Shown here: positions 10,077 through 20,290 of the stretch, one piece after another
Position numbering within the stretch: position 1 is the stretch's first letter
Layout of the letters: the number at the start of each line of letters is the position of its first letter
DNA from: Nitrospira sp.
Lineage (GTDB): Bacteria; Nitrospirota; Nitrospiria; Nitrospirales; Nitrospiraceae
Assembly (NCBI GenBank): GCA_030444405.1
Contig: JARFPM010000052.1
Span: 1-33,684 of the forward strand
Length of the DNA stretch: 33,684 bases
Reading direction: 5' to 3'
Translations under genes and position numbers: made by a program
The notes under the pieces: generated by a model
Told to the model about the DNA's origin: nothing
Database searches by the model: none
What the model saw: the letters and a program-made list of their open reading frames with translations, nothing else

Positions 10077-11441
10077 GTGAAGGCTAAAATTCTTATTGTC
10101 GACGATGATCCAGACATCGTCATGATGCTCGAAGATCGGCTCCAAGCCTCCGGATATGAAACTGTCATCGCGACAGAGGGGCAGCAGGCGCTGGACCAAA
10201 TTGTTCATGAATCTCCGCAGCTTATCCTACTGGACCTCACACTTCCCAAACTGTCCGGTCTCGATGTTCTTAAACGCCTTTCCCACATGAAACCGGCGGA
10301 GAGCCTTCCGGTCATCGTCATGACCGCGCACGCATCCATTGAAGCCGCGGTGGAAGCCATGAAAGAAGGCGCGTACGACTTCCTGACCAAACCCCTCGAC
10401 AAAGACCATCTCCTGATCGTGATTCGCAAAGCCTTGGAGCGTGATGCGCTCCGACGCCAAGTCGCCTACCTCCGCTCCGAGGTGGACGGACGTTACGCCT
10501 CCATCGTCGGCAACAGCCTGTCCGTGAAGTCCGTCGTGGAAGCGGCACAAAGGGCCGCCAAGTCCGACGCGAGCGTGTTGCTTCTGGGCGAGAGTGGGAC
10601 CGGCAAGGAACTCTTTGCCCGGTCGATTCATCAGTGGAGCCATCGGTGCGCGATGCCGCTCATCGTCATCAACTGCGTCGCCTTGACGGAGACGCTGCTG
10701 GAGAACGAACTGTTCGGTCACGAACGCGGCGCGTTCACCGGCGCGGATCGGCAGCAGAAGGGAAAATTGGAGATGGCCGACGGCGGCACCGTCTTCCTCG
10801 ACGAGATCGGAGATATGTCCCTTTCTTTGCAGGCCAAGCTTTTACGTGTCTTGCAAGACCGCGAGTTTCAACGCGTCGGCGGCTCCAAGACGGTCTCGGT
10901 GAACATTCGTATCATCGCTGCAACTAACAGAGATCTTCGGCAAGCTGTGAGGACAGGCCAGTTCCGCGAAGATCTCTATTTCCGGCTCAACGTCGTGGCT
11001 CTTACATTGCCGCCGCTTCGGGAGCGACAAGGGGATGTCATACCCCTTGCGCAGTTCTTTCTGGAACGACATACCAGAGATGCGAAACGACCAGGCATGA
11101 CACTGAGTCACGCTGCCATGGACGCCCTGACACGTTATCCATGGCCGGGGAATATCCGGGAACTGGACAATGTCATCGAGCGCGCAGTCGTCCTAAGTCT
11201 CACGGACACCATTGAACCGGAGATATTGGCACTGCTACCTGATGACGCCAGCCTCCGTCGAAACAGCGACGCTCCGCTGCCGTATGTGAACCTTCCCTAT
11301 CATGAGTCGATGGAGCAACACAGCCGCTACATCATCGCACGCGCGATGGAGAAGGCCGAAGGCAATCAGACGAAAGCCGCCGAATCGCTCCAGCTCCAGC
11401 GAACCTACCTGGCTCGGTTACTCAAACAGCAAAAGGAATAG
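10077..11441 (+). CDS. Sigma-54-dependent response regulator (NtrC family)
   Basis: A three-domain activator of 454 aa. The receiver domain (1-120) has acidic residues D9-D11 and the phosphoacceptor D53 ([10 protein letters not shown]). The AAA+ domain has Walker A GESGTGKE (about 168), the sigma-54 contact loop GAFTGA (about 220), Walker [12 protein letters not shown] and the arginine-finger region. The C-terminal Fis-type helix-turn-helix contains [20 protein letters not shown]. The start is GTG at 10077 with TAGGAG six bases upstream. No histidine kinase gene lies beside it, so it is an orphan here. Its DNA target is unknown. One sigma-54-like promoter occurs in the window at 19030-19045, but no link between them is shown. 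Confidence 0.95.
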
Positions 11442-18790: not shown

Positions 18791-19029
18791 ACCATCCAAG
18801 GTAATCAGTCCTTGGATCTATTCTTTGCTTGAAACTACCTTCGATGATTTGGACTCGTAAAACGTCTGTCAACCACCCATGCCAGCTATCGGAATGAGGC
18901 AGTTTAGTCGTATCCATGCCATTCTGCTACAGCACCCTGTAGGGTAAACCATTCGCGGTTTCATGAGAGGAATTTCGTAACCTGCTGATTACCCAATGGT
19001 CTATGTTTCATCTTACGAATAGGGCAGAA
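18791..19029. other. Non-coding stretch upstream of the Lys/Glu repeat gene
   Basis: Together with the remnant before it, about 600 bases separate cca from the next intact gene. I see no coding sequence with a ribosome-binding site and family pattern here. The sequence is less GC-rich than its neighbours. Confidence 0.5.
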
Positions 19030-19045
19030 CGGCACTACCCTTGCT
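19030..19045 (+). promoter_or_regulatory. Sigma-54-like promoter (-24/-12)
   Basis: CGGCAC, five bases, then TTGCT: this matches the TGGCAC-N5-TTGCW consensus at all but the first base, with the invariant GG and GC 12 bases apart. Transcription would start near 19056, about 60 bases before the ATG of the Lys/Glu repeat protein. A perfect TATAAT at 19086-19091, without a good -35, is an alternative. Confidence 0.5.
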
Positions 19046-19114
19046 CACCATCTGGACAAGTGCCAAGTGAGCGGCACACATATTTTATAATTTCTTAATT
19101 AGGGGGTTCTCATA

Positions 19115-19321
19115 ATGAAGAGCATGTTGATGGCAGTGATGGCAGTGGCAGTGGCAGTGACCTTCACCGCTCCTTCTTTCGCCGAAGAGAAGAAGAAGGA
19201 AGAGAAGAAGGGCGGCCACGTAGTTGTGTACGGTGAAGAGAAGAAGAAGGAAGAGAAGAAGGGCGGCCATGCCGACACCTTCGGCGATGCTGAGAAGAAG
19301 AAGGAAGAGAAGGGCAAGTAA
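19115..19321 (+). CDS. Small secreted Lys/Glu-rich repeat protein
   Basis: A 68-aa protein. Residues 1-23 form a clear Sec signal peptide ending PSFA. The mature part begins with EEKKKEEKKGGH (residues 24-35), has a VVVYG linker, then an exact second copy (41-52), and ends with a partial third (EKKKEEKGK, 60-68). The mature peptide of 45 residues is extremely charged, and each unit carries a Gly-Gly-His. It should be exported to the periplasm. No family is recognised; metal binding through His, or acid/stress protection, are guesses. It stands alone, with its own promoter region (GGGGGTT-type ribosome-binding site upstream) and a strong terminator 25 bases after the stop. Confidence 0.85.
   Translation: MKSMLMAVMAVAVAVTFTAPSFAEEKKKEEKKGGHVVVYGEEKKKEEKKGGHADTFGDAEKKKEEKGK
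19184..19270 (+). repeat. Tandem 36-base coding repeats in the secreted peptide
   Basis: Bases 19184-19219 and 19235-19270 encode the same 12 residues and differ only in the last base of the His codon (CAC versus CAT). A 15-base linker separates them. The near-identity of the DNA points to recent duplication or gene conversion. Confidence 0.9.
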
Positions 19322-19346
19322 GACTCAGTTTGCTAAGGCTGGGCTG

Positions 19347-19385
19347 GGGGGCTTTCTACACAGTAGGAAGCCCCCTAGTATTTTT
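19347..19385 (+). terminator. Intrinsic terminator of the Lys/Glu repeat gene
   Basis: GGGGGCTTTCTAC (19347-19359) pairs with GTAGGAAGCCCCC (19363-19375) across a three-base loop: 13 pairs with one G-U wobble. TTTTT follows at 19381-19385. Confidence 0.9.
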
Positions 19386-19657
19386 GGTGCCCTGGAGCAG
19401 AGCCTCGGGCCCTCCCGCTCTCGATCATTCATTACCCGTCCTACCCCTCTTACAACGATCGAGGGTCACAAGATCGAACCAAGGCGTACGATTCTGATTG
19501 CCTCCTCTAGAGCCTCATCTTCCTGATCGCCGCTGGCGACTCCACTCATTCCCTTTACTTCCAATGACTTCTGTGGACACATTTCCGCGCTGACATCGGT
19601 ACAAGCTTTGCTGGTACACTAACCACCGAACGGACTACCATGACCAAGGAGTTCGAG

Positions 19658-20023
19658 ATGGAGCTCCCGAGATCGATGACCAGTCATTATCGTTGGCTTC
19701 TGATCTGCTTGTTTCTGCTCGTTACTACAGCCTGCTCTTCGCCTGACTCCGCGCCAACCAGCGAAACCGCCTCGCTTTCCAGTGAAACAGCTACGCTTTC
19801 GTGGGATGCCAGTGTGGGACCGAATATTGCGGGATACAAGGTCTATCAGGCAACAGCCTCCGGTGCCTTTGGAGCACCAATTGCGGCCGTGACCATGGAC
19901 GTCACGACTTACACTGCCACTGGTCTGGAAGCCGGTACCACCTATTTCTTCGTAGTCACGGCATACAACTCGGATGGCGCCGAGAGTTCCTTCTCGAACG
20001 AAGTGAGCAAGACTACTCTCTAA
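19658..20023 (+). CDS. Lipoprotein with a fibronectin type III domain
   Basis: A 121-aa protein starting at ATG 19658, chosen because AAGGAG lies six bases upstream; an in-frame ATG at 19640 lacks a good site. A lipoprotein signal peptide (WLLICLFLLVTTAC) ends in a lipobox with Cys as the lipidated residue. A Ser/Thr-rich linker follows, then one fibronectin III domain: ATLSWDASVGPNIAGYKVY, then TYTATGLEAGTTYFFVVTAYN and SDGAESSFSNEVSKTT. It is expected on the periplasmic or outer face of the cell envelope. The ligand is unknown. It stands alone; tRNA-Arg follows about 190 bases later. Confidence 0.85.
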   Translation: MELPRSMTSHYRWLLICLFLLVTTACSSPDSAPTSETASLSSETATLSWDASVGPNIAGYKVYQATASGAFGAPIAAVTMDVTTYTATGLEAGTTYFFVVTAYNSDGAESSFSNEVSKTTL

Positions 20024-20214: not shown

Positions 20215-20290
20215 GCGCCCGTAGCTCAATGGATAGAGCACCAGACTACGGATCTGGGGGTTACAGGTTCAAGTCCTGTCGGGCGCACCA
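20215..20290 (+). tRNA. tRNA-Arg (anticodon ACG)
   Basis: A complete 76-base cloverleaf. The acceptor stem is GCGCCCG/CGGGCGC and the D arm GCTC/GAGC. The anticodon stem CCAGA/TCTGG encloses loop CTACGGA, so the anticodon is ACG. The T arm ends in GGTTCAAGTCC, and the 3' CCA is encoded. The ACG anticodon is normally edited to ICG by TadA and reads CGU, CGC and CGA. Confidence 0.97.

Follow-up and report, generated by a model that had tools for sequence, protein, structure and literature searches.

Small periplasmic proteins under sigma-54 control are exemplified by the ZraP type, which is governed by an activator of the NtrC family; ZraP itself is folded and binds zinc. The gene that we describe here, in a 33,684-nucleotide stretch of Nitrospira sp. 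DNA (contig JARFPM010000052.1, positions 1 to 33,684; the whole stretch is called the window below), shares with ZraP a small, predicted periplasmic product and putative sigma-54 control, but has no sequence similarity to it. Two other groups offer comparisons. The PEP-CTERM genes, which are controlled by PrsK/PrsR and RpoN (PMC1569441), encode exported proteins in scattered single-gene operons with a long upstream region, a common enhancer and a -24/-12 promoter, and the gene of the window resembles them in each of these respects. Hydrophilins are recognized by a Gly content above 6% and a hydrophilicity index above 1 (PMC7448490), and they and LEA-like proteins such as Zmo0994 of Zymomonas mobilis (PMC7448490) and plant dehydrins have in common with our peptide a very hydrophilic composition with more than 6% Gly, predicted disorder, and repeats rich in Lys, Glu and Gly. 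Zmo0994 is in addition secreted, as is, by prediction, the peptide of the window.

The open reading frame and its flanking elements are listed in Table 1. Its translation agrees with the description in the initial annotation, and it begins with a well-formed, conserved signal peptide of 23 residues that ends in PSFA. The mature peptide (45 amino acids, 5.1 kDa, pI 8.9) consists of two 17-residue units and a partial third, arranged as EEKKKEEKKGGH-VVVYG, EEKKKEEKKGGH-ADTFG and then the shorter DAEKKKEEKGK, with an EEKKKEEKK core common to the three copies; at the DNA level the repeat has a period of 51 nt, 2.5 copies and 80–81% identity. Lys (15 residues), Glu (11), Gly (7) and His (2) together account for 78% of the mature peptide. 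The initial description of it as almost entirely Lys, Glu and Gly-Gly-His (GGH) went slightly too far, since a VVVYG or ADTFG segment is a constant part of each unit.

Table 1. Coordinates of the peptide gene and its predicted control elements in the window.
Feature	Position	Strand	Details
Predicted enhancer (upstream activating sequence), paired half-sites GAGGCAGTTTAGTCGTATCCATGCCATTCTGCTACAG	18896..18932	+	-24 element starts 135 nt 3' of enhancer start
Predicted sigma-54 (-24/-12) promoter, GGCAC-TACCC-TTGCT	19031..19045	+	predicted transcription start ~19056
Inverted repeat (likely hairpin), GTGCC-AAGTGAGC-GGCAC	19060..19077	+	predicted 5' end of transcript
Shine-Dalgarno sequence AGGGGG, strong	19101..19106	+	from sequence; purine-rich run conserved among members
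Peptide open reading frame	19115..19321	+	68-aa preprotein, MKSMLMAVMAVAVAVTFTAPSFA followed by EEKKKEEKKGGHVVVYGEEKKKEEKKGGHADTFGDAEKKKEEKGK (translation)
Sec signal peptide of 23 residues, cleavage predicted after SFA	19115..19183	+	translation; near-universal P-x-F-A cut-site motif; dN/dS 0.14
Repeat unit 1, EEKKKEEKKGGHVVVYG	19184..19234	+	51-nt tandem repeat
Repeat unit 2, EEKKKEEKKGGHADTFG	19235..19285	+	80% DNA identity with unit 1
Partial third unit, DAEKKKEEKGK	19286..19318	+	translation
Predicted Rho-independent terminator, strong	19343..19389	+	17-bp stem, then T-rich tail; comparable hairpin 3' of many members

Searches with the single sequence found matches in 76 of the 79 genomes of the genus, and a profile search extended the family to 150 of 175 Nitrospiraceae genomes (102 of the 114 of good quality) in 11 of 22 genera, with one to five copies in each. 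Beyond the Nitrospiraceae, a sample of 395 genomes from the phylum gave only four marginal matches, the best with an E-value of 1e-6. In 84,980 named species a scan found 117 loci; the 80 listed, among them those of N. moscoviensis NSP M-1 and N. lenta, are all Nitrospira or Nitrospiraceae-type records, one of them titled 'Nitrosospira'. Judged by these searches, the peptide belongs to a paralogous family that is nearly exclusive to the Nitrospiraceae. The initial annotation had named a lack of homologues as grounds for rejecting its proposal, and the distribution of the family decisively contradicts this condition. It had also suggested that the number of units may vary between strains, and variation is seen both between species and between paralogs: the second family member in the same genome (contig C42) is 51 amino acids long with one GGH, some members elsewhere have three or four units, and tandem gene copies are also present. 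A further match in this genome (C59:42913) was rejected as a third copy, because it is a truncated haemoglobin that has only the signal peptide in common. At two loci (L134 and L135) runs of N, which mark gaps in the assembly, lie within or at the peptide genes, and the copy at L138 carries a frameshift of a single base close to its start; the repeats of the gene probably break short-read assemblies.

The peptide matches no Pfam or NCBIfam family above its curated cut-off, no PDB chain and no Rfam entry, in line with the earlier statement that no such family was known, and the family is undescribed in the libraries that we searched (for the literature, open-licence papers). We rejected the matches below the cut-offs, namely ExtJ (NF040942, 19.3 bits against 52.5), CopK (NF033793, 13.1 against 123), the precursors of MNIO-type RiPPs (12.9 against 50) and EF0750 (far under its cut-off). 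ExtJ and CopK are also small and exported, but their weak matches reflect only similarity of composition or of the signal peptide.

Pooled over 3148 informative pairs, the signal peptide has a dN/dS ratio of 0.14 and the mature part one of 0.28; these are simple counting estimates from pairs that are not independent, and both values are far below 1, so the gene is evidently translated and under purifying selection. A chance reading frame is ruled out by these ratios together with the conservation across genomes. Among the family members, the lower value in the signal peptide is the reverse of the usual trend. Composition varies little among 94 distinct mature sequences, in which the median content of Lys plus Arg is 32%, of Asp plus Glu 27% and of Gly 18%. 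Arg is nearly absent (five residues in the whole set), Cys and Trp are absent, there are usually two aromatic residues per member, and the net charge is mostly +1 to +3.

Upstream of the gene lies an arrangement that the initial annotation overlooked, as it did the genus-wide paralogous family: an enhancer, a sigma-54 promoter and a 5' hairpin (Table 1). The promoter has the GG-N10-GC (-24/-12) form of sigma-54-dependent genes and is plausibly spaced from the start codon, and a GGCAY-N5-TTGC sequence occurs 58–92 nt before the ATG in 82 of 99 distinct members, against a chance expectation, by a simple estimate, of about 0.1% of 140-nt windows. In 70 of these 82 sigma-54 members, paired half-sites 30–32 nt apart are present 91–115 nt before the -24 element. 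We searched the genus blindly for the enhancer motif, TGAGGCRGTTTAG-N-YTNYGCYACAG, using the motif alone and no protein information. The pattern occurs at 46 sites in 76 genomes, and the reversed pattern at none. All 30 sites that were inspected precede a family gene; three that the first filter missed belong to members interrupted by gaps in the assembly or by a frameshift of one base; and by coordinates 45 of the 46 precede a member, the remaining site running off its contig. Because the sites found blindly sit ahead of family genes, the enhancer is dedicated to the family.

The inverted repeat begins about 4 nt past the predicted transcription start, and in 51 sequences 93% of its cells are paired. 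It is likely to be an RNA hairpin and less probably a DNA palindrome, with too few two-sided changes to tell them apart, and it matches no structured RNA in Rfam. Seventeen of the 99 members have no sigma-54 match, and those inspected have a sigma-70-like arrangement with a comparable hairpin. They include L013, L014, L019, L026 and L027, where the hairpin is kept near the predicted start. This pattern suggests a division of labour between constitutive (sigma-70-like) and regulated copies.

The genome of the window encodes about 22 sigma-54 activators, and three small genomes with an enhancer-driven copy (G030, G224 and G353) encode three or four each. Only two orthogroups of activators are common to all four genomes: L182, an NtrX-like regulator adjoining an NtrY-like kinase, and L185, an AtoC/ZraR-like regulator adjoining a kinase. 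Comparison of gene content thus leaves L182-type and L185-type regulators as the two possible activators, provided that no activator was missed in the three drafts, which are 91–99% complete. Neither orthogroup is exclusive to the family, since two genomes that lack it have both as well. The window itself contains an NtrC-type sigma-54 response regulator (10077–11441) with no kinase gene evident alongside; we rejected it as the regulator because it is absent from the three small genomes, whose copies carry the enhancer and the sigma-54 promoter.

What might such a peptide do? Gly makes up 15.6% of the mature peptide in the window and 9–24% across the 94 members, and the mean Kyte-Doolittle value of the mature peptide in the window is -2.14, so both values fall on the hydrophilin side. 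For the soluble helix that the initial annotation had suggested as one option, AlphaFold2 offers no support: it gave no confident structure (mean pLDDT 52, from a shallow alignment), which is consistent with a disordered polyampholyte. The peptide differs from described hydrophilins in having no detectable homology to them, in its length of 45 residues, in its dedicated sigma-54 enhancer, and in the regular spacing of GGH and aromatic-Gly motifs. That it works like a hydrophilin is the best explanation, with the class assigned on physico-chemical criteria and not on homology. In the mechanism that we propose, the gene would form a stand-alone transcript, initiated at the sigma-54 promoter by an NtrC-type activator acting from the dedicated enhancer, with a hairpin at its 5' end and a strong terminator behind the gene. 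To judge from its signal peptide, the small product would be exported to the periplasm by the Sec system. Its mature part, a balanced Lys/Glu chain with short VVVYG/ADTFG segments and few His, could then serve as a hydrophilin-like periplasmic filler of presumably high abundance and protective effect, which would buffer charge and would hydrate and shield the proteins of that compartment, among them the periplasm-facing nitrite oxidoreductase (NXR); any metal binding would be weak and of low affinity at most. We put at roughly 40% the probability of this reading, in which an abundant, disordered polyampholyte is exported and behaves as a hydrophilin of the periplasm. Two observations count against a filler: GG-(H/K) and aromatic residues recur at regular positions, which suggests selection beyond bulk composition, and the stronger conservation of the signal peptide than of the mature part is not predicted by a pure bulk role.

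The His residues raise the alternative of a periplasmic metal buffer, which we consider unlikely. The periplasm of nitrifiers is rich in metals, and Cu(II), Ni(II) or Fe could be bound by His with nearby carboxylates, or by an N-terminal Gly-Gly-His released by proteolysis, for delivery to cytochromes, NirK or (in comammox organisms) ammonia monooxygenase. Members have one to five His, usually in xGH, and 93 of the 94 keep at least one, the other having none. In the classical amino-terminal Cu/Ni motif, the ATCUN motif, His stands third from a free mature N-terminus. No member has GGH at this end, which by the predicted cleavage site reads EEK.. or GEE..; GGH is internal, and the classical motif would therefore need an extra cleavage. 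Each His is also individually replaceable by Gln, Lys or Tyr: in several members the first GGH becomes GGQ, PGQ or PGK, and in others the second becomes GGY, GGK or DGK. There is no Cys or Met cluster, recurrent neighbouring genes do not include metal transporters, and the CopK match is far too weak. The initial annotation had proposed that the GGH units could bind Cu or Ni; with GGH internal and replaced in members, and one member free of His, a specific metal-binding role is unsupported. Its other main points, a real gene, export (by prediction), variation in unit number and the lack of a described family, have held.

An extracellular role also seems unlikely. In this case the peptide would be secreted past the outer membrane as a polyelectrolyte of the matrix or envelope, its lysines would bind exopolysaccharide or nucleic acid, possibly with coacervation, and it would help to build the dense microcolonies of Nitrospira, under sigma-54 control that parallels the PEP-CTERM genes of floc-forming bacteria. 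The arrangement of enhancer, -24/-12 promoter and long upstream region before single-gene operons is indeed that of the PEP-CTERM genes (PMC1569441), the bacterial exterior is broadly under sigma-54 control (PMC3162934), and the repeated aromatic-Gly segments could serve as stickers. The enhancer sequence is different, however: that of the PEP-CTERM genes is of the TTTACA type, a motif absent from the Nitrospiraceae-restricted TGAGGCRG..CTGCYACAG enhancer of the peptide family. The PEP motif, transmembrane helix and basic cluster that mark the C-terminus of PEP-CTERM proteins are absent from the member sequences, there is no Pfam match above cut-off, neither a lipobox nor any other sorting signal is present (the mature sequences have no Cys that could follow the signal peptide as in bacterial lipoproteins), and exopolysaccharide genes are absent among the recurrent neighbours.

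The unusual conservation of the signal peptide relative to the mature part could be understood if the peptide were a precursor, from which either the signal peptide or the repeated units are excised as a signal, or whose units are enzymatically modified; the units, variable in number, do resemble those of multi-core precursors. We think this improbable, as no protease, maturase or transporter gene recurs alongside, the match to MNIO-type RiPP precursors is well below its cut-off, and the units contain no Cys, Ser or Thr cores. Least plausible is an envelope tether of the Braun lipoprotein type with its C-terminal Lys linked to peptidoglycan, which would suit a small, exported, possibly abundant peptide whose C-terminus is always Lys or His (mostly Gly-Lys), but about one-fifth of members end in His and are incapable of an equivalent link, and there is neither a lipobox nor a coiled-coil heptad pattern in a chain that appears disordered.

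The abundance that a hydrophilin-like polyampholyte would require can be approached through N. moscoviensis, in which, as Mundinger et al. (PMC6606698) report, transcription is highest for four genes: NITMOv2_2496, nxrA, nxrB and nxrC. The third, divergent family member of this species lies at 2,324,084–2,324,278 on the minus strand and begins MKRFSMMVALAAFVGAGAMATVAMADEDKKEEKKGGH; it appears to have a sigma-70-like promoter. The bacterioferritin gene NITMOv2_2541 is at 2,379,653, and about 40–50 genes were counted between the two, so that the member lies about 41–51 genes before it, which places tag 2496 at or within a few genes of the divergent member. By this counting the divergent paralog is probably NITMOv2_2496, and the argument from expression concerns that paralog and not the copy in the window.

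Two locations recur among the genomes: downstream of cca/galT/GH57, as in the window, and between fabI and NUDIX/gcvT, as for the other copy. Both are conserved stand-alone sites with housekeeping genes as neighbours that give no hint of a function, and we therefore rejected an operon partner or a dedicated transporter. In 34 genomes the fabI/NUDIX copy is 10–23 kb (median 11.9 kb) from an nxrB-type gene and always convergent with it; in N. moscoviensis (L220, positions 230000–249999), where the NxrA and NxrB reading frames were checked, as in the 33 others, the distance to nxrAB is about 12 kb. The intervening genes look like housekeeping genes, so the proximity may be inherited gene order and not a functional link. 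No sigma-54 element was seen in the region upstream of nxrA. Co-occurrence with nitrite oxidation was rejected as an argument, because nxrB-type genes are also present in genera without the family and the absence of nxrB from metagenome-assembled genomes is unreliable. Six Nitrospiraceae (G045, g3, g8, g10, g12 and g13) have an nxrB-type gene and no family member, so the family is not required for nitrite oxidation. It is a speculative and, in our view, rather unlikely extension of the hydrophilin-like reading that these lineage-specific exported polyampholytes, in amounts comparable to NXR, condition the periplasm for nitrite oxidation with their own sigma-54 enhancer circuit as the switch; they may, for example, shield, hydrate or buffer the periplasm-facing NXR.

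No nitrite oxidisers are more widespread than Nitrospira, which also include complete ammonia oxidisers; to our knowledge, a role has yet to be assigned to most of the exported proteins that they conserve. Its dedicated enhancer makes this genus-wide family a concrete handle, with a defined regulon, two candidate activators and, in N. moscoviensis, a relative that may rank among the four genes with the highest transcription. Should the peptide prove abundant, it would represent a new type of periplasmic component in an organism of global importance and would give biophysics a natural Lys/Glu polyampholyte. Directly 3' of the peptide gene, the window contains a gene for a short exported protein with fibronectin-III-like sequence (19640–20023), and a similar gene is in the equivalent place at about 15 loci. 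A tRNA-Arg (ACG) gene, at 20215–20290, shares the same intergenic area as the peptide gene.
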